Below, one piece after another: positions 5,788-50,627 of a stretch of DNA of 64,000 bases. Below the pieces are notes generated by a model, which was given only the letters and a program-made list of their open reading frames with translations, ran no database searches and was not told the DNA's origin. The number at the start of each line of letters is the position of its first letter. Within the stretch, counting starts at the first letter, position 1. Origin of the DNA: Enterobacter ludwigii (GTDB taxonomy: Bacteria > Pseudomonadota > Gammaproteobacteria > Enterobacterales > Enterobacteriaceae). Both the position numbers and the translations under genes were made by a program. The stretch covers positions 1-64,000 of the forward strand of contig CEFQ01000010.1 of assembly GCA_900068845.1 (NCBI GenBank), in the 5' to 3' direction.

Positions 5788-6543
5788 TTAAAAGCGGTCT
5801 TTCTTCTCGCGTAGATCGGCGAAAGTTTGCCATAACGCTGACGATGAGACATTAGCTCCTAAAGCCTGTTTTAAATCAGCATCTTGCGTGCGCAAAAATA
5901 AATTTATTTCCCGCTCTAAGGCCAGTTTTGTAGGTAAAGTAATGCGGTTTTCCGCGCGTAAGTCCTTAATTTGCTGATACCTTGCCAAAATTTTAGGGTC
6001 GTGAGGCAGAATAGCCGCAGCAAACTTCATATTGGATAAAGTGTACTCATGCGCACAGCAAATGAGGGTATCTTCAGGCAGCTGATTAAGCTTTTGAAAT
6101 GATTCAAACATTTGTTCTGCAGTGCCTTCAAATAAGCGTCCGCAGCCGCCAGAAAACATCGTGTCACCACAGAAAAGATAAGGGGAGCTGAAATATGAGA
6201 TATGTCCTAAAGTATGACCAGGCGTTGCGATGACGCGGAAGCTAAGCCCAAGCAGGGTAAATTCATCCCCCTCAGCCACAATGCGCTTTGCCCCTTTATC
6301 TGCCGTTTCCTGTGGACCGAAAACCTCCAAAGCGGGATAGTGCTGCAACAGTTCGTTCACGCCGCCGACATGATCGTGATGATGATGCGTCAGCAAAATC
6401 GCGACGGGTTGCCAGCGATTCGCCCTCAGTTTATCTAGCACTGGCTGCGCTTCGCCGGGATCGACAATCAGACATGTATTGTCATCGTCCGTCAGTGTCC
6501 AGATGTAGTTATCCTGCAATGCGGGAATACTGGTAAGATTCAT
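5788..6543 (-). CDS. gloB: Hydroxyacylglutathione hydrolase (glyoxalase II)
   Basis: Cytosolic metallo-beta-lactamase-fold enzyme that hydrolyses S-D-lactoylglutathione to D-lactate and glutathione, the second step of methylglyoxal detoxification. The metal motif [10 protein letters not shown] is near residues 50-60, with further ligands in [16 protein letters not shown] and CAHEYT. I use the ATG at 6543 (251 residues, the E. coli length), which has a GAGAGG ribosome site 5 bases upstream. A GTG two codons earlier is less likely. It is divergent from yafS across 40 bp. Confidence 0.95.
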
Positions 6544-6583
6544 AAACACCTCTCAGGTCGTAGAAAAAGGAAAATGGTAGAGC

Positions 6584-7318
6584 ATGAAGCCAGCTAAAAC
6601 GCGCCAAATCCTGACTGCACCGCGCTCCTGGCGCGATATGCCAATGGGGGACTATTTTCGCGACGCACTCACTCAGCAACTGCAGCCTTATCTCGGCAAG
6701 CTGTACGGCTTTCATATGCTTAAAATTGGTAGCCTAAGCGCAGAAATCAATACCAGCCAGTGTGCCATATCGCATCAGGTGAATGTGGGCATTGAGGGCG
6801 ATGAGCTACAAGTGATCGCCAATAACACGCAATTACCCTTTGAATCTAAATCCGTTGATGCCTGTTTACTCGCACATACCTTGTCCTGGAGCCAGGATCC
6901 GCATCGCGTGTTGCGCGAAGTAGATCGGGTGTTGATCGATGATGGCTGGATGATCATTAGCGGCTTCAATCCCTTCAGTCTATTAGGGATGAGCAAAGGC
7001 ATTCCGGGTTTGCATTCACGCGCGCCATGGAGTGGGCGCATGTTCAGCCAGGTGCGTTTGCTCGACTGGCTAAGTCTGCTGAATTATGAAGTGGTTTACC
7101 GCACGCGTTTTCAGGTGGTGCCGTGGCATCGGCAGGGAGGCAAGGTGATCAGCGCGCATCTGCCGGCGCTAGGCTGTCTGAACATTGTGGTGGCACGTAA
7201 ACGTACGTTCCCGTTAACGCCCACCAAAATGAAGAAGAATCTGAGTCAAAGCCAGCTACGTCAAACGGTTAACGTGACGCGCCAGTTTCGCGAAGTGAAG
7301 GATCAGGATTCAACCTGA
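6584..7318 (+). CDS. yafS: SAM-dependent methyltransferase-like protein YafS
   Basis: A 244-residue class I methyltransferase-fold protein in the conserved gloB-yafS-rnhA context. Visible elements are a degenerate SAM-binding region near [10 protein letters not shown], the [19 protein letters not shown] segment (motif II/III, residues about 86-105) and [20 protein letters not shown]. The glycine-rich motif I is weak, so SAM binding may be altered. The substrate is unknown. Its last 16 bases overlap the 3' end of convergent rnhA. Confidence 0.85.
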
Positions 7319-7770
7319 TAGCCGACATCATCCTGGGTAGGATTTCCCGCCGCGCTGCGCGCCAGTTCGTCGCAGCGTTCGTTCTCCGGATGCCCCGCGT
7401 GGCCTTTAACCCATTCCCACTTGATTTCATGGTTGCTGAGTGCCAGATCGAGCCGTTTCCACAGATCGACATTTTTCACCGGTTTCTTATCGGCGGTTTT
7501 CCAGCCGCGCTTCTTCCAGTTATGGATCCAGCTGGTGATACCCTGACGAACATATTGGCTGTCGGTGCTGATCACCACGTCACACGGCTGCGTTAAGGCT
7601 TCAAGTGCCACGATGGCGGCCATCAATTCCATGCGATTATTCGTGGTGAGGCGGTAACCGGTACTGAACAATTTTTCGTGTTCGCGATAGCGTAGAATGG
7701 CGCCGTAGCCGCCGGGACCGGGATTGCCCAGGCAGGATCCATCGGTGAATATTTCTACCTGTTTGCGCAT
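7303..7770 (-). CDS. rnhA: Ribonuclease HI
   Basis: Cytosolic endonuclease that cuts the RNA strand of RNA-DNA hybrids, removing R-loops and primers. The ATG at 7770 gives 155 residues, the E. coli length; an in-frame start 8 codons upstream is rejected. The catalytic residues Asp10, Glu48, Asp70 and Asp134 and His124 all align with the E. coli numbering. The gene is divergent from dnaQ with only 53 bp between, a conserved arrangement. Its 3' end overlaps yafS by 16 bp. Confidence 0.97.
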
Positions 7771-7823
7771 CTCTGGTAGACTTCCTTCTGACAAAACGCC
7801 AAGTCTGACATAAAACGAGTCCT

Positions 7824-8555
7824 ATGAGCACTGCAAATAACCGCCAGATCGTCCTCGATACCGAAACCACCGGCATGAACATGATCGGTGTGCATTATGA
7901 AGGACATCGCATCATTGAAATTGGTGCGGTTGAGGTGATCAACCGTCGCCTGACCGGCAACAACTTCCACATGTATCTGAAACCCGATCGGCTGGTGGAT
8001 CCGGAAGCGTTCGGCGTTCACGGTATCGCCGATGAATTCCTCGCCGATAAGCCGATTTTTGCCGATATCGCCGATGAGTTTCTTGAGTACATCCGTGGCG
8101 CGGAGCTGGTGATCCATAACGCATCGTTCGATATCGGCTTTATGGATTACGAATTCGGTATGCTGAAGCGGGATATCGGCAAAACCGAAACCTTCTGCCA
8201 GATTACCGATAGTCTGGCGATGGCGCGTAAGATGTATCCTGGCAAGCGCAACAGCCTTGATGCGTTGTGCAACCGTTATGAAATCGATAACAGCAAGCGT
8301 ACGTTGCACGGCGCACTGCTCGATGCCGAGATTCTGGCGGAAGTTTTCCTGATGATGACCGGCGGTCAAACCTCGCTGTCGTTTTCACTGGAGGGAGAAC
8401 AAAACAGCCAGGGCACGGGGGAAAGTATTCAGCGCATTGTACGTCCGAGTTCGGGTCTCCGCGTGGTCAGTGCCAGTGATGAAGAGATTATGGCGCATGA
8501 AGGGCGTCTGGATTTAGTGCAGAAGAAGGGCGGCAGTTGCCTGTGGCGCCTGTAA
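7824..8555 (+). CDS. dnaQ: DNA polymerase III epsilon subunit (proofreading exonuclease)
   Basis: 3'-5' exonuclease of the replicative polymerase core. At 243 residues it matches E. coli. The DEDDh residues are in the expected places: Asp12 and Glu14 (LDTETTG), Asp103 (NASFDIGF), His162 and Asp167 (LHGALLDAE). The clamp-binding motif QTSLSF is at about 182-187, followed by a flexible linker and the C-terminal alpha-binding region. It is divergent from rnhA and is followed by the second tRNA-Asp. Confidence 0.98.
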   Translation: MSTANNRQIVLDTETTGMNMIGVHYEGHRIIEIGAVEVINRRLTGNNFHMYLKPDRLVDPEAFGVHGIADEFLADKPIFADIADEFLEYIRGAELVIHNASFDIGFMDYEFGMLKRDIGKTETFCQITDSLAMARKMYPGKRNSLDALCNRYEIDNSKRTLHGALLDAEILAEVFLMMTGGQTSLSFSLEGEQNSQGTGESIQRIVRPSSGLRVVSASDEEIMAHEGRLDLVQKKGGSCLWRL

Positions 8556-8630
8556 AACGGCTGTTTTTGCCTGTAAAACCGACGTTAAGCTGAAAAAAAC
8601 GCCAAACGAAACATTCCCACAGAAAAAGCG

Positions 8631-8659
8631 TTGACGGGTACCAAAGCTGCTATTAATAT
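8631..8659 (+). promoter_or_regulatory. Sigma-70 promoter of tRNA-Asp with GC discriminator
   Basis: A -35 box TTGACG (8631-8636) and a -10 box TAATAT (8654-8659) are separated by 17 bp. They are followed by a GC-rich GCGCCTCG discriminator, the usual mark of stringently controlled stable-RNA promoters. The tRNA starts about 30 bp downstream. Confidence 0.85.
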
Positions 8660-8689
8660 GCGCCTCGTTCTCGACGGGGAACAAAGCGC

Positions 8690-8766
8690 GGAGCGGTAGT
8701 TCAGTTGGTTAGAATACCTGCCTGTCACGCAGGGGGTCGCGGGTTCGAGCCCCGTCCGTTCCGCCA
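8690..8766 (+). tRNA. aspV: tRNA-Asp (GTC)
   Basis: Complete 77-nt tRNA with a 7-bp acceptor stem, anticodon GTC at 8724-8726 and encoded CCA (8764-8766). It is identical over the shared 66 bases to the copy at the window start. In E. coli the equivalent aspV site is a hotspot for accessory DNA. Here the purine-ureide island begins directly downstream. It has its own promoter and terminator. Confidence 0.98.
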
Positions 8767-41325: not shown

Positions 41326-41335
41326 GGAGCGGATG

Positions 41336-42589
41336 ATGTTAGAAGAGATGGGTAAAGCGGCGCGTGCTGCGTCGTACAAACTGGCTGCACTCTCCACCGA
41401 ACAAAAAAATCAGGTGCTACTCAGCATCGCCGATCGTCTGGAAGCGGAAAGCGCCGACATTCTGGCGGCAAACGCGCAGGATCTGGCGGATGCGCGCCAA
41501 CATGGCATGAGCGAAGCGCTGCTCGATCGCCTGACGCTCAATCCGCAGCGCCTGAAGGGCATTGCGGATGACGTACGTCAGGTGTGTCGCCTTGCGGATC
41601 CGGTCGGTCAGTTGATGGATGGCGGCCAGCTTGATAGCGGCTTACGCATCGAACGTCGTCGTGTGCCGCTGGGTGTTGTCGGTGTGATTTATGAAGCGCG
41701 CCCGAATGTCACCGTTGATGTCGCGTCGCTGTGCCTGAAAACCGGTAACGCGGCGATTCTGCGTGGCGGCAAAGAAACCTACCGCACCAACGCGGCCACG
41801 GTGCGCGTGATCCAAAATGCGCTGACCCAGCACGGTTTACCGGCGGGTGCCGTGCAGGCGATTGAAAACCCGGATCGTGAACTGGTCAATCAGCTGCTGA
41901 AGCTCGATCGCTACGTCGATATGCTGATCCCGCGCGGCGGCGCAGGTTTGCACAAACTGTGTCGCGAGAATTCGACGATTCCGGTGATCACCGGCGGCAT
42001 CGGCGTATGTCATCTTTATCTCGATGAAACCATGGAGACAGAGGCGGCGCTGGCGGTGATCGTCAACGCGAAGAAGCAGCGCCCAAGCGCCTGCAACTCG
42101 CTTGAAACGCTGCTGATCCATAACGATCAAGCCGATCGCTTTATTCCTGCATTCCTGCAACGTATGGCGCAAGAGAACATTGCGCTGCACGCCGACGAAA
42201 ATGTGCTGGCGCTGCTGCAAAACGGTGCCGCCGAAGTGGTCGCGGTGCAGGCGGAAAATTATGATGACGAATGGTTGTCCAACGATCTTAACGTCAAGCT
42301 GGTGGCAGATATCGATGAAGCCATCGCGCATATCCGTGAGCACGGCACGCAGCATTCTGATGGCATTCTGACGCGCAGCATTGGTAACGCCAATCGCTTC
42401 GTCAACCAGGTTGACTCATCCGCGGTATACGTTAATGCCAGCACGCGCTTCACCGACGGCGGCCAGTTTGGCCTCGGCGCCGAAGTGGCGGTCAGTACGC
42501 AGAAGCTGCACGCGCGAGGTCCGATGGGACTTGAGGCGCTCACCACCTATAAATGGATAGGGTGGGGCGACGATACGCTACGTCGCTAA
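41336..42589 (+). CDS. proA: Gamma-glutamyl phosphate reductase
   Basis: NADPH-dependent aldehyde-dehydrogenase-fold enzyme of 417 residues that makes glutamate semialdehyde. The catalytic Cys is in [24 protein letters not shown] and [20 protein letters not shown] are conserved. Of two tandem ATG codons I choose 41336, because AAGGAG is six bases upstream and the length equals E. coli. In E. coli thrW and an integrated prophage follow; here a terminator and then a phage-derived cassette follow, with no tRNA. Confidence 0.97.
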
Positions 42590-42607: not shown

Positions 42608-42637
42608 AATGGGCACCGAAAACGGTGCCCATTTTTT
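42608..42637 (+). terminator. Terminator of proBA
   Basis: An 11-bp stem (42608-42618 with 42623-42633) has an AAAA loop and runs into a T-run. It marks the end of the conserved backbone before the phage-derived cassette. The 305 bp from here to the repressor ATG hold no gene I can support. Confidence 0.92.
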
Positions 42638-42926: not shown

Positions 42927-42942
42927 GGCAGATTATTAACTG

Positions 42943-43671
42943 ATGGTTAAAAAAGAAAGTACGAGACAAGCATTCACTGCCAGGCTGATTGCCGCGTGCG
43001 AAAGCGCGGGAATTATCGGACATGGACGGAACAAACAGGTTGCGCTTGCGCTGCAAGAGAGGGGATGCAAGATCTCAACGCCGGGGGTGTGGAAATGGTT
43101 TAACGGACAATCGATACCCGATGATAACAATTTACTGGCGCTCAGCCAGTTACTCGACGTGCGTGTTGAGTGGCTGCAATTTGGTATGGAAAAACCGGCC
43201 GCCCTGCTGACGCAGCGAAGTTTGGTTAATCCACAGCATCTGTTTCGCGTAGAGAGTCTGGATATCGGTCAACACGGTGTGCGCAGCAGCACGCGCGATG
43301 AACTGGTAGAAACCATTCAAGCCATTGAATATGGGCTGGAAGAGGCGCGCGTGTTGTTTAATGGCCGCCCGGCCGAAAATATTCGCCTCATCGCGCTGAA
43401 CAGCGATTCGATGGCGGGCACCTTTGCGCCGCGCGATCAGCTGTTCGTCGATATCAGCGTGCATCGCTTTGATGGCGATGGCATCTATCTCTTCACGCTT
43501 GACGATCAGCTCTATCTCAAACGCCTGCAGCTGCAGCACAAAAAGGTCGCGGTGATCTCAGATAACAAGCGCTATGAAACCTGGTATTTAACCCTGGAAG
43601 AAGCCAGGACGCTGCAGGTGGTGGCGCGGGTGATCATGAGCCAGGCGCGGGATTATCAAATCCTGGGTTGA
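42943..43671 (+). CDS. Phage-type repressor with S24 (LexA-like) domain
   Basis: CI-like regulator of 242 residues. A helix-turn-helix spans about 10-75 (NKQVALALQERG...STPGVWKWFNG). A C-terminal S24 domain has Ser156 (NSDSMAGTF) and Lys193 (YLKRLQ), 37 residues apart as in LexA. The linker (about 85-150) has no Ala-Gly or Cys-Gly pair, so RecA-stimulated self-cleavage is doubtful. Unlike lambda, it is co-oriented with and directly upstream of the lysis genes. The ribosome site is weak. It is the likely controller of the cassette. Confidence 0.85.
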   Translation: MVKKESTRQAFTARLIAACESAGIIGHGRNKQVALALQERGCKISTPGVWKWFNGQSIPDDNNLLALSQLLDVRVEWLQFGMEKPAALLTQRSLVNPQHLFRVESLDIGQHGVRSSTRDELVETIQAIEYGLEEARVLFNGRPAENIRLIALNSDSMAGTFAPRDQLFVDISVHRFDGDGIYLFTLDDQLYLKRLQLQHKKVAVISDNKRYETWYLTLEEARTLQVVARVIMSQARDYQILG

Positions 43672-43749
43672 TCACAAAACGCCAGAATGCGGTAAAAAAA
43701 TATTTTGGCTGAAATCATAAATTTAACTGACGGTAAATAAAAAATTAAC

Positions 43750-43787
43750 CATTGGTGTTTGCCAATGCATTAGAACCTGTTAATAAT
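43750..43787 (+). promoter_or_regulatory. Candidate promoter/operator of the lysis cassette
   Basis: The dyad CATTGGTGTTTGCCAATG (43750-43767) overlaps a possible -35 box TTGCCA (43759-43764). A -10-like TAATAA follows after 16 bp (43781-43786). A repressor bound to the dyad would cover the -35 element. The dyad differs in sequence from the one before the repressor gene. Confidence 0.45.
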
Positions 43788-43794
43788 TTGAGCA

Positions 43795-44085
43795 TGGATG
43801 GACAACATACCTGCTCACGGACGAGCCCGCTCTTAAACAATTGAGGCGCTGCACAAGCGCGATACATACCATCCAAAGTTAGTGAACTTTGGGATGGGGT
43901 GGATACGCACTTTGCAGCGTTGTCAGTTGCCCTCTGTTTTCACTCTCCTCTACTTCACCCTGGCCGCGAATGCAGCCGGGCGAGTTGACGTCGAGTATTT
44001 TCCAGAGGAACAGCGAACGCTTCGGCTTCAGCCGAATCGCCGTGCCTGCCACCCCATCGCCAAAGACTCATTAACAGGAGGAGTT
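43795..44085 (+). other. Structured untranslated leader of the lysis cassette
   Basis: About 290 bases with no supported gene but several hairpins. The clearest pairs CCATCCAAAGTT (43869-43880) with AACTTTGGGATGG (43885-43897), with one bulged base. Others are a GCGCTGCACAAGCGC hairpin near 43847 and CTTCGGCTTCAGCCGAA near 44018. It ends at an AGGAGGAG ribosome site. An antitermination leader, riboregulator or small RNA are all possible. Confidence 0.45.
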
Positions 44086-44364
44086 ATGGCGATTATCCAG
44101 TACGGGAAGTCAGTATTTTCAGGCAATGCACGCACGCGCCGCCATCGGCGACGCCAGTCCCTCAGTCGCCTCAAGCGCAGCATCGACAACGCGCTCGGCA
44201 TCGAATACGAAAACGTTACATTGCGCACCGCTGAACGCATCTGTCAGCGCCAAACGCACTCACGCATTGACTGCGCGGTGTTAGCGCCTGTTCGCGTTCA
44301 GCCGGCACAAGCGAGTTTCGATAACTGCTGTTTACCCCATGTCTATTTGTACGCCGTGCGCTAA
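44086..44364 (+). CDS. Small arginine-rich protein of unknown function
   Basis: A 92-residue protein that I do not recognise. The ATG has an excellent AGGAGGAG ribosome site five bases upstream, the best evidence that it is translated. Residues 16-31 are strongly basic (RTRRHRRRQSLSRLKR), which suits nucleic-acid binding. The C-terminal part has three cysteines and no obvious membrane segment. It lies between the repressor and the endolysin, the place where phages often carry late antiterminators. A regulatory role is inference only. Confidence 0.65.
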   Translation: MAIIQYGKSVFSGNARTRRHRRRQSLSRLKRSIDNALGIEYENVTLRTAERICQRQTHSRIDCAVLAPVRVQPAQASFDNCCLPHVYLYAVR

Positions 44365-44548
44365 ATCTTTCTCCCCTTTCCCCAGTTTTAAGCGGAACGT
44401 TTTATAGATGCTCAGTGTTTAACCATCCTTGAGCGTTTCGCTTATCAAACAATGCGCTGAGATCAGGAAACGATCAGCGAGATTTATGTGTTTTTACCGC
44501 TTTGCGCAGCCATTTTCAGGCTGTCGCGCCCGTCTAAGAGGAATTTCT

Positions 44549-45016
44549 ATGAGTCAGATTATTGCCATCCTGAATTTTGAAGAGGGTTACCGCGAAGCGC
44601 CTTACCTCGACACCCTGGGTTTCCCTACGGTGGCGGGGGGGATTCGCATCGGCCCGAAAGGGGCCTCACTCAGCAACTACATCTTCCAGGTGCCGCGTCC
44701 GGTGGGCGATGTGTGGAAGCAGTGCATTGTCGAGGGCAAGGTGCAGCAGATGCATCAGCGTGCGCTGGTGCAGCAGGCGCTGGCCAAATGCAATGAGGCG
44801 CGCTGCGATGTGCTGATCAGTATGGGTTATCAACTGGGTGTGGATGGGCTGGCGATGTTTCGCGGCATGCTCACCGCCATCACTCAGGGCGATTTCAACA
44901 GCGCAGCCAACGCCATGCTCGACAGTTTGTGGGCTCGCCAAACCTCGGGCCGCGCCCGGCGGCATGCCGAAGTGATGCGCAGCGGCACGTATGACATCTA
45001 TCGGGGGCTGCTATGA
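44549..45016 (+). CDS. T4-type lysozyme endolysin (GH24)
   Basis: Phage endolysin of 155 residues that cleaves MurNAc-GlcNAc bonds. The catalytic triad Glu12-Asp21-Thr27 has the T4 lysozyme spacing (11-20-26). The C-terminal half keeps T4-like features (SLWARQTSGRARRHAEVMRSGTYDIY). I start at the ATG with AGAGGA six bases upstream and reject an in-frame extension of 40 codons. There is no signal or SAR anchor, so it needs the holin for release. Its stop overlaps the holin start by 4 bp. Confidence 0.9.
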   Translation: MSQIIAILNFEEGYREAPYLDTLGFPTVAGGIRIGPKGASLSNYIFQVPRPVGDVWKQCIVEGKVQQMHQRALVQQALAKCNEARCDVLISMGYQLGVDGLAMFRGMLTAITQGDFNSAANAMLDSLWARQTSGRARRHAEVMRSGTYDIYRGLL

Positions 45017-45363
45017 ATCTGAAACTGCTGATTTTTGTCACCGCAGTGCTGGCGGTAATCGTGGTGGTGATGGTGATGCAGCGCTTCACCACGCTGGAAT
45101 TTGTTAAACATGCGCGGCTGTTATTCAAAACCTGGTCAGTGTGGCTGGCGTCACTCGGTTCGATGCTCAGCGCGTGGGTGCAATCGTTTCCCACCGCTGC
45201 GCTTGATGCATGGAACAGCATGCCGCCGGATGTGAAAGCGATTCTGCCGCACAACTATCTCGGGTTGATTGGCGCTTTCATGGTGGCGATGGGCGTCATT
45301 GCCCAATTCGTTCGCCAGAAAGGCCTCAACCAGCAAAAAACGGCGATGGAGGAAAAAGCATGA
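45013..45363 (+). CDS. Holin, three predicted TM segments
   Basis: Inner-membrane protein of 116 residues with TM segments at about 3-22, 43-60 and 81-102 and a basic C-terminal tail, the class I holin layout. The QSFPTAALDAWNSMPPDVKAILP loop type recurs in enterobacterial prophage holins. Overlaps on both sides (4 bp with the endolysin, 4 bp with the inner spanin) show a tightly coupled lysis operon. It would form the pores that release the endolysin. Confidence 0.85.
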   Translation: MNLKLLIFVTAVLAVIVVVMVMQRFTTLEFVKHARLLFKTWSVWLASLGSMLSAWVQSFPTAALDAWNSMPPDVKAILPHNYLGLIGAFMVAMGVIAQFVRQKGLNQQKTAMEEKA

Positions 45364-45653
45364 CACTTATCACCACATTGCTTGGCGGCAGCTGGCACTG
45401 GCTCGCCGCCCTGGCAGGCGTCATCGCCGCGTTAGCGGCCAGCTACTTCGGTGGCAAGAAAATCGGCAAGGTGCAGCAACAATCCAAATCCGCCGTCGAG
45501 CGCGCCGATCAAGCCGCGGCGCAAGCGGTAGCCGTTAACCAGCAGCAGCAACAGCTGCGTGAGGAGGCCAAACGTGTGGAAGCCAGCAACCTTAATCTTG
45601 ATGACGCTGCTGCTCGTGACAAGCTGCAGCAGTCGAAATACCACCAGCCCTGA
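45360..45653 (+). CDS. Inner-membrane spanin (Rz-like)
   Basis: A 97-residue protein with one N-terminal TM helix (about 11-30) followed by a long Gln/Ala-rich periplasmic coiled coil. This is the Rz architecture. The ATG overlaps the holin stop. Its last third overlaps, in another frame, a lipoprotein gene with Rz1 features. Together they would join inner and outer membranes after the wall is cut. Sequence families of spanins diverge widely, so the call rests on architecture and position. Confidence 0.82.
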   Translation: MTLITTLLGGSWHWLAALAGVIAALAASYFGGKKIGKVQQQSKSAVERADQAAAQAVAVNQQQQQLREEAKRVEASNLNLDDAAARDKLQQSKYHQP

Positions 45654-45804
45654 AGCCCCCGTCGTCATCGACTCAGCCTGTACCCTGTTTTCCCCGATTT
45701 ATACCCACGGCAATGACGCCGCGCGCATGGACGTTCGCACCGTGCGCGCCATCAACAATCACAACGATCTTTGGGATCAGCACTGCGGTCAACCGGCCCA
45801 GTAA
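45574..45804 (+). CDS. Outer-membrane spanin lipoprotein (Rz1-like)
   Basis: A 76-residue lipoprotein read in the +1 frame relative to the Rz-like gene, overlapping it by 80 bp. The start is GTG at 45574, with GAGGAGG six bases upstream; a GTG five codons earlier is less likely. The signal sequence ends in lipobox LVTSC (Cys at about residue 18), followed by SSRNTTSPEAP. Unlike lambda Rz1 it is not fully embedded and is longer. It completes the four-gene lysis set. Confidence 0.8.
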   Translation: MWKPATLILMTLLLVTSCSSRNTTSPEAPVVIDSACTLFSPIYTHGNDAARMDVRTVRAINNHNDLWDQHCGQPAQ

Positions 45805-45855
45805 CGCTGCTCTCACGCATTTGCATTACCTACCCGAAAAGCCGAGGAGGCTATA

Positions 45856-47601
45856 ATGATCGAAGTTAACTCTTATGCAGAACTGCGTACCACCGTACCG
45901 GCCAAAAACGGCGATCTGGCATTCTTACGTCGCTACAACGCTGACTCCACCTTCCACGGCGGCGGTGATTTTACCGGCTTTATCGGTACCACGACCGCGG
46001 TAGAAGATGGCGGTACGCTGGTGATCGGTAACGGTTTTTACTGGAAACGTGTGATTAACGATCCAAAGGACATCAACCTTTATCACTTCGGTGCTAAAGG
46101 CGATGGTTACGCCAACGATACGGAGGCGTTCAACCGTATGCTGGCATGGACGCAAAGCTACTCCGGTAACATTACCGCGTTACCGGTGCGTTTCCCTGGC
46201 GGTAAATTCCTGATCAGCCCGATCGACATCAGCGGTACCGAGCGCGCCTTTTTTGGCTTGCAAGGTGATGATGTCGAACTGGGTTCGCTGCCGCGTACCA
46301 CCATCATTTCCGACAAAAGTGCCAACACGGTATTCAAGGTGAAGGCGCGTCGTACCTCAATCAGAGGGATCGCGTGGAATGGCCAGGCATCAGCGGATAT
46401 CACCACCAACAAAAGCACTATCACCTCCGATATGTGCAGCAACGTGCAGCCCTTCTTCGAAAACACCTGTATCGAAGGCACCACCGTCAATATCTACTGT
46501 TTCCGCGCGCAGAATAACGGCGGTACGGTGATCAAAGTGTTGGATACCCTCGACAGTAAATTCGACCAGATTTACACCCTGTATACCTACGGACGCGTGT
46601 TTGATGTTGGCTGGTCGAACTCGCCGAAAGGCGCCTGGGATCACTCCACCGCCATTGAGCTGTGTAACTGTAACTTCCAGACCGGTTACGGTGACGCCAC
46701 ACTCTACATGCCGCGTGTGACGCAGGGGATTATCCGCAACGTGTGGATTGAGCACACGCGCAATCCGGGCGACCTGTCGGATGGCGGCTGGACGGTGGAT
46801 ACGCTGAATATTGAAGATTGCGGTACGCCGTTGAATCTCAACAATGCACGCGTGGTGATCCGTCAGCTCAACCTGCAGTCTGGCGCCAAACTGAGTCTTG
46901 ATGCAGCTGCTGGGCGCTGGTTATCCACCTTTGAATACGGTTATCGCCGCGACGAGAACTACGGCACCTTTATGACCGGGTCGCTACGCGCGGGCTATTT
47001 TAGCGGCTACAAAATTACCAATAATACTGAAACCGATAACTGGTATCGCGTCGGGCAGTTGTTCTTCCCGAACGCCAACCAGCAGTGGGTGATGGAGTTT
47101 ATTGGTAAGGCGGATGCCACACAGCCAACCGGCACCGCTGGCTCACCGGTCAATGTGGCGGCGACCGGTAAAACCTGGGTCAACCTGCAGCGTCTGGAAA
47201 CGGTATGGGCGGATGCTTATCACATGGGGCAGCCAGCGGTGCTGGATATCCGCTACAGCCGCGTGGGGACCACTTATGCGGCGGTGTGGGTAAAACTGCG
47301 CGCCAACAGTGGTGACACCATGATGAACCTGAAATGCACCGGTCCAACGCGTTTCGATACCGGTTCTTGCTCGCTGTTCCAGCAGGACTTCTCTGTGGTG
47401 ACCGATACCACCAAACTGGGCGGTTTCAAACCGGCGGCGCGCTTCGGGCTGCATAACGGTTTGGCCGGTATTGGTGCCAACGAGAAAGGGGTGCTCACCG
47501 TCGCGACGGCGGCCGGCACACCGACCAACAAAACCGCGCCTACGGGCTTTGTGCTGGTCAACATTAACGGTGTCGATCGTAAACTTCCTTATTACGATTG
47601 A
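45856..47601 (+). CDS. Tailspike-like exopolysaccharide glycanase (AmsF/WceF type)
   Basis: A 581-residue right-handed beta-helix protein. A short N-terminal domain (1-70, MIEVNSYAELRTTVPAKNGD) leads to the pectate-lyase-3 motif HFGAKGDGYANDTEAF (about 76-91). The helix core extends to about 350, with a C-terminal beta-rich part after that. It resembles AmsF of Erwinia amylovora and WceF of Pantoea stewartii, tailspike-like glycanases of amylovoran/stewartan clusters, and phage depolymerases. No signal peptide is seen, so the adjacent lysis genes may release it. An unlinked phage tailspike remnant is the alternative. A strong terminator follows. Confidence 0.82.
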   Translation: MIEVNSYAELRTTVPAKNGDLAFLRRYNADSTFHGGGDFTGFIGTTTAVEDGGTLVIGNGFYWKRVINDPKDINLYHFGAKGDGYANDTEAFNRMLAWTQSYSGNITALPVRFPGGKFLISPIDISGTERAFFGLQGDDVELGSLPRTTIISDKSANTVFKVKARRTSIRGIAWNGQASADITTNKSTITSDMCSNVQPFFENTCIEGTTVNIYCFRAQNNGGTVIKVLDTLDSKFDQIYTLYTYGRVFDVGWSNSPKGAWDHSTAIELCNCNFQTGYGDATLYMPRVTQGIIRNVWIEHTRNPGDLSDGGWTVDTLNIEDCGTPLNLNNARVVIRQLNLQSGAKLSLDAAAGRWLSTFEYGYRRDENYGTFMTGSLRAGYFSGYKITNNTETDNWYRVGQLFFPNANQQWVMEFIGKADATQPTGTAGSPVNVAATGKTWVNLQRLETVWADAYHMGQPAVLDIRYSRVGTTYAAVWVKLRANSGDTMMNLKCTGPTRFDTGSCSLFQQDFSVVTDTTKLGGFKPAARFGLHNGLAGIGANEKGVLTVATAAGTPTNKTAPTGFVLVNINGVDRKLPYYD

Positions 47602-47617
47602 GGTCCAGCACCTTTTT

Positions 47618-47646
47618 GGCGAGGCCTTTGGCCTCGCCTTTTTTTG
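47618..47646 (+). terminator. Terminator of the lysis-glycanase cassette
   Basis: An 8-bp GC-rich stem GGCGAGGC/GCCTCGCC (47618-47625 with 47631-47638) has a CTTTG loop and a T-run to 47645. It begins 16 bp after the glycanase stop. Confidence 0.92.
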
Positions 47647-47794: not shown

Positions 47795-48865
47795 TCACCC
47801 TTTCGGGAAAATCCACACATGGTTTTCCGGCAACGCCAGATGGCAATGTTGCGGATCACGCACGTCGCTGCCGTAGGCGCGAATCACAAAATCATCACCC
47901 ACGGTGCGGAACAAGTATTCCCAGCGGTCGCCAAGGTACATGCTGGTGAGTAGCGGCAGTTCCAGCTGGTTTTCGCCCGGCGCATCGACCACGTTTACAC
48001 GTTCGACGCGAATCACCGCCGTGGCTTCCTGGCCGTTTTGCACGCCTTCGCCTGCCCGTCCCCATAACGCCCAGCCTTTGCCCTCAATACGCGCTTTGCC
48101 GTCGCGCAGCTCGGTGATTTTACCGTGCAATCGGTTGTTGCTGCCCATGAACTCGGCGGTAAACAGGGTTTTCGGCGAGCCGTACATCTCTTGCGGCGTG
48201 CCTTGCTGTTCGATTTTGCCGTTATTGAGCAGCAAAATGCGGTCGGAAATCGCCATCGCCTCATTTTGGTCGTGCGTTACCATCAGCGCGGATAAGCCTA
48301 ACTTGATAATCAGCTCACGCAGGAACACGCGCGCCTCTTCGCGCAGTTTGGCATCCAGATTCGATAACGGTTCATCAAGCAAGATCACCGGCGGGTTATA
48401 AACCAGCGCACGACCAATTGCCACGCGCTGCTGCTGTCCGCCGGAAAGCTGGTGCGGATGACGCTTGCCGAGATGACCCAAACCTAACTGCACCAACACA
48501 TCTTGTACGCGTTGGGTGATCTCCGCAGAGGGCACTTTGCGCAGCTTTAATGGATAAGCCACATTCTCAAACACGGTTTTGTGCGGCCACAGCGCATAGG
48601 ACTGGAACACCAATCCCAGATTACGTTCTTCCGCTGGAATCTCACTGCGCGGCGTACCCGCGTACACCGTGTTGCTGCCAATCACGATGGTGCCCTGAGT
48701 CGGTTTCTCCAGCCCGGCGACCGCACGCAGCAGCGTGGTTTTACCGCTGCCGGACGGGCCAAGCAGAGAAACCACTTCGCCTCGCTGCAAATTCATCGAC
48801 ACGCCTTTCAGCACCGGGTTGTCGCCATAAGTTAAGTGCAGATTTTCCACCGATAATTCAATCAT
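47795..48865 (-). CDS. ABC transporter ATP-binding protein (FbpC/PotA type)
   Basis: Cytosolic ATPase of 356 residues. Walker A is GPSGSGKTT, the signature LSGGQQQRVAIGRAL and Walker B VILLDEPLSNLDAKLRE. A C-terminal TOBE-type regulatory domain covers about 240-356. The ATG at 48865 is chosen over an upstream in-frame codon because MIELSVENLHLTYGD is the natural start. It overlaps the permease gene by 8 bp. It energises the import system encoded just upstream. Confidence 0.92.
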   Translation of the reverse strand: MIELSVENLHLTYGDNPVLKGVSMNLQRGEVVSLLGPSGSGKTTLLRAVAGLEKPTQGTIVIGSNTVYAGTPRSEIPAEERNLGLVFQSYALWPHKTVFENVAYPLKLRKVPSAEITQRVQDVLVQLGLGHLGKRHPHQLSGGQQQRVAIGRALVYNPPVILLDEPLSNLDAKLREEARVFLRELIIKLGLSALMVTHDQNEAMAISDRILLLNNGKIEQQGTPQEMYGSPKTLFTAEFMGSNNRLHGKITELRDGKARIEGKGWALWGRAGEGVQNGQEATAVIRVERVNVVDAPGENQLELPLLTSMYLGDRWEYLFRTVGDDFVIRAYGSDVRDPQHCHLALPENHVWIFPKG

Positions 48866-50627
48866 GTAATTTGACTCCAAATCGCAGGGCAATACCCAAA
48901 CCGACGACGACCAGCAGGATGTTAATAAAGGAGAGTGCGGCAACAATATCAATCGCGCCCGCCGCCCACAGGGAAACCAGCATGGAGCCGATGGTTTCCG
49001 TACCGGGCGACAGCAGATACACGCCGGTGGAATATTCGCGCTCGAAAATCAGGAACATCAGCAGCCATGAGCCAATCAGGCCGTAACGGGATAATGGAAT
49101 GGTAACGTGACGCGTAATTTGTCCACGCGTGGCGCCGGTGCTACGCGCCGCTTCTTCCAGTTCCGGCCCTACTTGCAAGAGCGTTGAGGAGATCAAGCGC
49201 AGGCCATAGGCCATCCACACCACCGTATACGCCAGCCAGACGCTGAAGATGGTGCTGCGCAGCGAACGCAGCCAGACGACCAGGTTATCGCGCAGCCACT
49301 GCGACCAGGCGAAATCGGAGAGCCAGCCCGATTTGAGTGCGTTATCCAGCCACATCGGCAGGAACAGGAATACCCAAAGAAACGCCAGACCGGCCAGCAA
49401 GCCCGGTACCGCACGCGGCACTAATACGCTGTAGTCGAGGAAGCGCGTAGTGTTATCCGGTTTACGGTGCATGGCGATGCCGATAAACAGATAACACACC
49501 ACCGCCAACGCGCCGCCGATCACGCCAATCGCCATCGAGTTGACGATAGCGCGCAGCAGGTTGGGCTGCGCCCAGATGGTCTGGAAGGTTTTGATCGACA
49601 ACTCATCCCACAGTGAGACACCAACGCCCCAGTTAGAGATGAACGCGCGCAGCACCACGCCCAGCAGCGGCACGCCAATGGTCACCGTCAGCCAGAACGC
49701 CACCACGGCACCGGCCACCCAGCGCCATTTGCCCAGCGGCAACGCACGCGCCTGCGAGGCTTTGCCTTTTACCGTGACAAAGCGGTTGGCTGTACGCATC
49801 AGACGGCGTTGCAGCATGACTAACGGAATGGTGATACAAATCAGTACCACGGCCACCGCAGCCATCAGGTGATAGGACGGCGTGCCGAGCTTATTCGTTA
49901 ACTGATAGAGATAGGTGGCCAGCACCATGTTGCCTTCGGGATCGCCCAGCACCAGCATCAGGCCGAACACTTCCAGCCCGAGGAAGAACAGCAGCACGGT
50001 GGCATACAGCATCGAAGGACGTACCATCGGCAAGCTCACCGACGTCATCACCTGCAACGGTGAGGCACCGGCAATACGCGCCGCTTCTTCCACATCCGAT
50101 CCTACGCTGCGCAGGGCCGATGAAATATACAGATAGGCGTGCGGTACGTGCGTCAGACCAGCAATCACCACGATGCTCGACATGTCGTAGATATTCCACG
50201 GCACAAACCCGAGCAGTGATTGCGCCCACAGCGAGAAGAATCCCACTGGACCGGCGGCCACCACATAACCAAATCCCAGCACCATCGGCGAGACAAAAAT
50301 GGGCACGAGGATCAGCGGCTCAATAAGGCGTCTGCCCGGTAGATCGGTACGCACCATTAAGAACGCCAGAATGCCGCCCAGCGGAATGGCGATGATCACC
50401 AACCCGAAGGCGAGAATAAATCCGCTGCGCAACGCTTTATAGAAATCGGGATCGGTGAAAATAAATTCAAACGATTCCAGGCTCCACGCTTTCGACGGCG
50501 CAAAGAATGGCGCGGATAAGAAACTTTGAATAACAATAAACGACAGCGGAATGTAGATAACCAGCGTGGTTATCAGCACCACAATGCCGCGCGGCAGGCT
50601 TTGCCACTTTCTCTGCAATGCACGCAT
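48858..50627 (-). CDS. ABC transporter permease, fused two-domain (FbpB type)
   Basis: Inner-membrane permease of 589 residues with two tandem permease domains, about 12 TM helices in all. Each half has an EAA loop: EEAARIAGASPLQVMTSVSLPMVRP (about 180-205) and EEAARSTGATRGQITRHVTIPLSRY near residue 510. Fused permeases of this kind occur in ferric-iron, thiamine, phosphoglycerate and hexose-phosphate importers. It lies between its binding protein and ATPase genes. Confidence 0.9.
   Translation of the reverse strand: MRALQRKWQSLPRGIVVLITTLVIYIPLSFIVIQSFLSAPFFAPSKAWSLESFEFIFTDPDFYKALRSGFILAFGLVIIAIPLGGILAFLMVRTDLPGRRLIEPLILVPIFVSPMVLGFGYVVAAGPVGFFSLWAQSLLGFVPWNIYDMSSIVVIAGLTHVPHAYLYISSALRSVGSDVEEAARIAGASPLQVMTSVSLPMVRPSMLYATVLLFFLGLEVFGLMLVLGDPEGNMVLATYLYQLTNKLGTPSYHLMAAVAVVLICITIPLVMLQRRLMRTANRFVTVKGKASQARALPLGKWRWVAGAVVAFWLTVTIGVPLLGVVLRAFISNWGVGVSLWDELSIKTFQTIWAQPNLLRAIVNSMAIGVIGGALAVVCYLFIGIAMHRKPDNTTRFLDYSVLVPRAVPGLLAGLAFLWVFLFLPMWLDNALKSGWLSDFAWSQWLRDNLVVWLRSLRSTIFSVWLAYTVVWMAYGLRLISSTLLQVGPELEEAARSTGATRGQITRHVTIPLSRYGLIGSWLLMFLIFEREYSTGVYLLSPGTETIGSMLVSLWAAGAIDIVAALSFINILLVVVGLGIALRFGVKLHD

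Follow-up and report, generated by a model that had tools for sequence, protein, structure and literature searches.

Gene content of the cassette beside proA

The present work concerns a 64,000-nucleotide stretch of contig CEFQ01000010.1 (Enterobacter ludwigii, assembly GCA_900068845.1), which in its full length is referred to here as the window. Our analyses have identified at positions 42943-47646 of the window a cassette of seven genes, all in the same direction (plus strand) between proA and a strong terminator, in which a repressor and an N antiterminator are followed by a lysozyme, a holin, an inner and an outer spanin, and a homologue of exopolysaccharide (EPS) depolymerases, referred to below as the glycanase. 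A sequence-only reading of this DNA had laid out the same head-to-tail series from repressor to glycanase with a terminator at its end, and every one of these genes and the terminator were found. It had also stated that integrase, replication and virion genes are missing, and none was found among the tested proteins between proA and the terminator; the set of genes that marks a functional prophage (integrase, replication, packaging and virion genes) is thus not represented among the cassette proteins.

The cassette proteins were assigned to families by Pfam and PHROG profile matches. The repressor (42943..43671) is a CI-like protein of the S24 type (Peptidase_S24, phrog_4) and the N antiterminator (44086..44364) matches the Pfam family N_peptide (E 4.1e-20) as well as the N-like family phrog_271. 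The lysis genes comprise a T4-type lysozyme, or endolysin (44549..45016; phrog_7, E 6.8e-11), which scores 21.6 bits against Pfam Phage_lysozyme, slightly below the 22.3-bit cut-off; a holin with two hydrophobic stretches (45013..45363; DUF7940, phrog_1356); an inner spanin (45360..45653; phrog_1026); and an outer spanin (45559..45804; phrog_1275), a lipoprotein with the lipobox LLVTSC whose gene overlaps that of the inner spanin. The glycanase (45856..47601) matches the EPS depolymerase family phrog_4250 (E 6.6e-169), and the cassette is closed by an intrinsic terminator at 47618..47646 (plus strand; hairpin 47618-47638).

For comparison we used 35 distinct loci, mostly from genomes with Pantoea names, which were obtained by querying genomes with the glycanase and therefore favour close relatives. 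Residues E12, D21 and T27 of the lysozyme, which by T4 lysozyme we take to be catalytic, are identical in 34 of the 35 sequences. The glycanase aligns with PDB entry 6tgf (WceF) over residues 3-580 (E 3.5e-102), which bears out the kinship to WceF that had been proposed, and eleven acidic residues that it shares with a WceF-like protein of its own genome and with the enzyme of phage phiEaP8 are invariant in 34 sequences, these two included. This homology rests on sequence because the AlphaFold model of the glycanase (mean predicted local distance difference test score, pLDDT, 36) is useless. The first residue of the protein corresponds to WceF residue 169 and, as the sequence-only reading had held for a signal peptide, a simple hydropathy scan found no hydrophobic N-terminal stretch. 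WceF and AmsF are tailspike-like EPS glycanases. WceF itself cleaves stewartan and bears both a twin-arginine translocation (Tat) signal and a head domain (PMC7949094); the cassette protein differs in being located with lysis genes. We considered and rejected the idea that absence of a head-binding domain is a bacterial adaptation, for in the enzyme of phage phiEaP8, too, the alignment starts at residue 1. The additional WceF-like protein of the own genome is 736 amino acids long and by eye lies among glycosyltransferase-looking genes, and a third relative in this genome (G000:C8:422758-424392, L064), 30-32% identical, showed no lysis genes within the 14 kb inspected around it.

Hairpins similar to the terminator are found 3' of the glycanase in 32 of the 35 loci, the others being L010, which has none, and L034 and L035, where the scan started inside a broken gene. 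The sequence-only reading had called all frames intact with good ribosome sites; the genes are present as described, the quality of the ribosome sites was judged by eye only, and the start of the outer spanin is uncertain: it is GTG in the window, and at 18 of the 33 start-aligned loci the codon in first position is not one for initiation, so that the real start may lie further in. The conserved left neighbour proA (41333..42589, plus strand) has its own terminator at 42608-42633 and is outside the operon. A tRNA-Thr(CGT) follows the glycanase in 21 of the 35 loci, and ARAGORN found no tRNA in the window. ABC transporter genes located 3' of the cassette in the window (47795-50627) were matched in 3 of the 35 loci (L001, L002 and L028), indicating a variable right flank. 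NCBIfam gave no cassette match exceeding its cut-offs, Rfam gave three matches at the operon end, each below the gathering score, and a plasmid search matched one record over 6% of the query.

Control DNA between repressor and lysis genes

The arginine-rich protein of the sequence-only reading is present as reported and is identified here as an N antiterminator accompanied by a conserved nut site; with the operator layer, which had been overlooked, it makes the control of the cassette a phage switch. In the lambda/P22 left operon the order is cI, oL/pL, nutL and N, and the cassette shares with it this order and direction, operator-like sites, a boxA, a boxB hairpin, an arginine-rich N protein and a structured N leader. 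The control layer of the cassette is thus a lambda-type cI-operator-nut-N module, which differs from lambda and P22 in that N leads straight into the genes for lysis and the depolymerase and that genes for integration, recombination or virions are absent.

The operator-like sites were scored with a matrix derived from the sites of other species, and the three sites concerned are the top three of the 64-kb window: TTTAACTGACGGTAAA at 43722..43737 is the best, ATTAACTGATGGTTAA at 42935..42950, which spans the repressor start, the second best, and ATTAACCATTGGTGTT at 43744..43759, which touches the -35 hexamer of the promoter, the third best. With a score of 13.8, the next distinct site falls among the maxima obtained from six shuffles (11.5-16.2). 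The candidate pL-like promoter (TTGCCA-17-AATAAT; 43759..43787, plus strand) is the sole site of the promoter scan and the block surrounding it is conserved. In the control regions we saw no LexA-like box save one CTG-N10-CAG within the N leader.

The nut site, called by pattern and alignment, consists of boxA CGCTCTTAAACA (43828..43839, plus strand) and a boxB hairpin GCGCTGCACAAGCGC with a 5-bp stem and a 5-nt loop (43846..43860, plus strand). The boxA pattern followed by boxB is found in 33 of the 35 loci; L010, L012, L045 and L040 (from another genus) have the same nut site with the first base of boxA changed from C to T, and L040 has further differences in the spacer and 3' of boxB. The exact nut pattern occurs in one copy each in 49 of 61 genomes of the genus, and the reversed control pattern in none. 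In an alignment of leaders from the window and 24 of 31 prepared loci (25 rows; L013, L027, L029 and L034 excluded beforehand), boxA to boxB is invariant except for two columns and much of the DNA beyond varies. The boxB loop of the cassette is GCACA, in contrast to the GACAA of two prophage N genes, and the N motif NARTRRHRRRQ resembles the NAKTRRHERRR and NAKTRRHARRR of two prophage N proteins; the motif is also similar to that of P22 N. Searched at E 1e-5, the phage collection gave no match to N.

The N leader (43829..44094, plus strand) is predicted to fold into an unusually stable structure (z -5.6) in which the N ribosome site is paired, and the N leader of lambda is comparable, its block being relieved by RNase III. 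Two-sided changes were observed in 6 of the 55 pairs of the leader consensus and in none at the ribosome site, where the nearly invariant stem is thus without covariation support. Of the hallmarks of lambdoid antitermination, an arginine-rich N protein and a nut site in the N leader are present; for a further one, a downstream terminator for N to override, no intrinsic candidate was found between N and lysozyme in 30 of 31 loci. To judge from these sequence features it is very likely that N would control the operon.

Conservation, descent and proposed function

All nine genes of the locus (proB, proA, repressor, N, lysozyme, holin, both spanins and glycanase) were matched in the same order in 35 of the 35 glycanase-selected loci, and all seven cassette genes are intact by reading frame in 28 of them, including L020 and L021, where the alignment leaves out roughly one fifth to one quarter of the holin of the window. 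In a search of 147 relatives, lysozyme matches were found in 54 of the 61 genomes of the genus, and N is likewise matched in 54 of the 61, three of these matches being fragmentary. An N-like match is also present in 18 genomes of a 392-genome sample, 14 of them non-Pantoea; of the three non-Pantoea N-positive genomes that were inspected, one (G020) has the entire cassette adjoining proBA. At L012 an inserted pair of transposase genes (7168-8700), which by eye are IS3-like, separates N from lysozyme.

Trees of the cassette and of proBA, based on 28 of the 35 loci and the window, have 19 of 26 splits in common; all 18 proBA splits with support of at least 0.9 recur in the cassette tree, with no conflict between supported splits. 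The median ratio of nonsynonymous to synonymous divergence (omega) is 0.037 for proB, 0.084 for proA, 0.077 for the repressor, 0.129 for N, 0.127 for the lysozyme, 0.147 for the holin, 0.110 for the glycanase, and 0.177 and 0.278 for the inner and outer spanin, whose genes overlap. These values were obtained by the Nei-Gojobori method from pairs with synonymous divergence (dS) of 0.1-1.5 only (146 of 528 pairs for N and 220 of 561 for the repressor), in a set that keeps the frameshifted lysozyme of L024 and the repressor of L029 (match over 201 of 242 residues), both of which pass the length filter. The sequence-only reading had proposed to search for this gene set next to proA in other genomes and to measure purifying selection on it; the outcome is affirmative, with the set matched in all 35 loci and cassette medians of 0.077-0.278. 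The same site, vertical descent and purifying selection are what characterize a domesticated gene set, and because virion genes are absent from the cassette, its tree agrees with that of proBA and its genes are under purifying selection, it is nearly certain that the cassette is a domesticated phage gene set that has descended together with proBA, as had been supposed.

Given a cI-operator-nut-N module that heads lysis genes and a depolymerase without virion genes, the cassette is probably, in our moderately confident judgment, a domesticated lambdoid operon in which lysis of the cells that fire would free the depolymerase for their surviving kin. The repressor, bound to operators at its own start and at the pL-like promoter, would keep the operon off. 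Where repression fails, transcription would pass through the nut site and N would be made; N would bind boxB and RNA polymerase would continue into the lysozyme, holin, spanins and depolymerase. N would make the response strong and self-reinforcing, so that a firing cell would lyse, and the depolymerase, made in the same cell and having no export signal, would be freed by this lysis and shorten the exopolysaccharide around surviving kin. A few cells would thus burst to release the enzyme. We infer each element of this scheme, viz. operator binding, antitermination, lysis, release, substrate and benefit; the sequence-only reading had likewise suggested that a few cells may lyse, for a kin biofilm or against rivals.

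Lysis-mediated enzyme release is the most likely function, and the cassette would work like a type 10 system. Domesticated lysis cassettes are known: ChiWXYZ of Serratia is reportedly one that serves release, and the release of ChiA in Salmonella is reported to be by a type 10 system. The cassette shares with these systems and with that for Tc release in Yersinia entomophaga a holin, a peptidoglycan hydrolase and spanins outside a phage, and a linked cargo without an export signal; it differs from them in its control by a phage repressor, N and nut, its T4-type lysozyme and its EPS depolymerase cargo. Holin-dependent leakage of the glycanase from cells that survive, giving non-lytic export or slow trimming of EPS, appears quite unlikely to us. 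Non-lytic transport through holins has reportedly been proposed elsewhere; however, the lysozyme and both spanins have been retained as well, and in Yersinia the type 10 secretion system has been shown to act by lysis (PMC10847048).

Several observations weigh against the proposed lysis operon. The EPS depolymerase activity of its cargo is predicted from homology. The promoter scan returned one site where 3.5 were expected by chance, i.e. not above chance level, so that the promoter call rests on its conserved surroundings. Between N and lysozyme no intrinsic terminator-like site was found in 30 of 31 loci (L032 has one), and our guess is that the terminator that N would override is Rho-dependent. 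A cassette gene is broken in 7 of the 35 loci (L013, L024, L027, L029, L031, L034 and L035), and N is unmatched in 7 of the 61 genomes (G401, G402, G419, G420, G428 and the small genomes G429 and G367), so that decay in relatives, which the sequence-only reading had named as a sign against domestication, does occur in part. L053 (G415) has no spanin match. At L045 (G435) a tRNA-Thr and a different tailspike replace the spanins and glycanase (5873-8657) and the repressor, N, lysozyme and holin are retained, an apparent exchange of cargo. Lastly, the Ala-Gly pair is absent from the hinge of 25 of 34 repressors and the catalytic serine is missing in 3 of the 34.

Some of the broken loci have further features: proB or proA is broken as well in L013, L027 and L029. 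The frameshifted lysozyme of L024 is from a P. stewartii subsp. stewartii record, and the split glycanases of L031 and L035 are from the records of P. eucrina LMG 5346 and P. ananatis LMG 2665; sequencing error is possible in each. In the proBA tree the N-less loci L046-L050 (G401, G402, G419, G420 and G428) are placed within the genus, which suggests loss, and L045 sits among them. These broken genes and the loss in one clade are what a functionless prophage remnant carried beside proBA would leave, a view to which we give almost no credence, for the median omega values of 0.077-0.278 are the opposite of an omega near 1, and nut and operator-like sites kept beside diverging DNA are the opposite of a drifting nut site. 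We also regard it as very improbable that the locus provides lysis for a tailocin or gene transfer agent whose genes lie at another place in the genome. Such particles require lysis genes, and sheath and HK97 portal proteins are matched above cut-off in 37 and 42 of the 61 genomes, respectively; these readings are nevertheless weakened, as the own genome and 10 N-positive genomes have neither sheath nor HK97 portal, in a test confined to these two families.

The repressors call for separate consideration. The hinge of the window's repressor is GQHGVRS, without Ala-Gly; the pair is present in 9 of the 34 sequences, and the lysine and serine of the catalytic dyad are found in 34 and 31 of the 34, respectively. 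Two phage repressor relatives have SAGPG together with the serine and lysine. The combination of an Ala-Gly site and a Ser-Lys dyad that marks an SOS-inducible CI is thus not found in the window's repressor, and with Ala-Gly missing from 25 of 34 repressors simple SOS induction is doubtful. Judged from these residues, self-cleavage is open to doubt in the lineage to which the window belongs, and other lineages may be capable of it. The repressors without Ala-Gly would suit a phage anti-repressor better than induction by RecA, and the full immunity-type module, with operator-like sites flanking the repressor, would be expected of a phage defence in which the repressor confers immunity to related lambdoid phages and its knock-out by an infecting phage makes the cell lyse early, with the depolymerase as a by-product or a hindrance to phage spread. 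Such a defence seems to us unlikely: it leaves unexplained the constraint on the glycanase (omega 0.110), which equals that on the lysis genes, and PADLOC gave weak matches only, with no known system convincingly named.

Phage relatives and parallel cassettes

Phages contain the effector part of the cassette. Prophage L060 has a lysozyme (74%), holin (45%) and spanins (56%) followed by terminase- and portal-looking genes (by eye), and a glycanase search of viral contigs gave 26 loci. One of these, L067, is the Pantoea proBA cassette and the sole viral contig with the nut pattern. Five others have a lysozyme and holin 5' of a glycanase of 55-64% identity, with both spanins (L069, L073 and L074) or without them (L070 and L071). 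The Erwinia phage phiEa100 has the order lyz-hol-open reading frame-dpo, its dpo being 28.7% identical over part of the protein. The order lysozyme, holin and EPS depolymerase is common to phiEa100, these five contigs and the cassette; phiEa100, in contrast to the cassette, is a whole phage, and the cI-nut-N head was seen neither in it nor in L069-L071, L073 and L074. The block of lysis genes and EPS depolymerase is an older phage property, so that their adjacency alone is not a bacterial invention. The novelty is the coupling of this effector block to cI-nut-N without virion genes.

A glycanase that matches that of L069 at E 1e-120 or better is present in 8 of 392 genomes of the family, from four genera. 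A second type of cassette adjoins a GGDEF-like gene in G222, G353 and G171 (two genera) and in the contigs L069, L073 and L074. It has CI on one strand and, on the opposite one, Q followed by lysozyme, holin, spanins and glycanase; L073, L097, L099 and L101 have an N-like match on the far side of CI. Among the Q-type loci (L097, L099, L101, L069, L073 and L074) median omega is 0.09-0.27, from 6-14 usable pairs with high dS. The independence of this type from phages is called into question by terminase matches in the records of L069 (E 1.3e-39) and L073 (E 1.3e-6) and by portal-like genes, recognized by eye, upstream in L073; no terminase match was obtained in the records of L070 and L074.

Variants at other sites include L098 (holins with CI, lysozyme and holin), L100 (holins and glycanase), L102 (CI and glycanase only) and L103 (other small open reading frames and CI). 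Related glycanases are accompanied by a pair of other holins (phrog_198 and phrog_217), close to a DinI-like gene by eye, in L098, L100 and the viral contigs L068, L070, L071 and L072; L098 and L070 add CI, lysozyme and holin, and the repressor of L070 has Ala-Gly, Ser and Lys.

We hold it to be an even proposition that these bacteria have repeatedly converted the phage block of lysis genes and EPS depolymerase into host operons run by retained phage transcription switches: cI-nut-N by proA in Pantoea, CI with Q by a GGDEF gene in two other genera, and variants elsewhere. No description of the cassette was found in a search confined to the open-licence literature of PubMed Central (PMC), and within the literature thus searched a lambda-type switch retained as a host operon across most of a bacterial genus is undescribed. 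The finding raises two testable questions: whether antitermination serves bacteria in altruistic lysis of an all-or-none kind, and whether an enzyme from sacrificed cells remodels the exopolysaccharide slime of plant-associated bacteria. If repeated conversion is true, lambda-type antitermination would be a standing bacterial circuit for altruistic lysis and slime remodelling.

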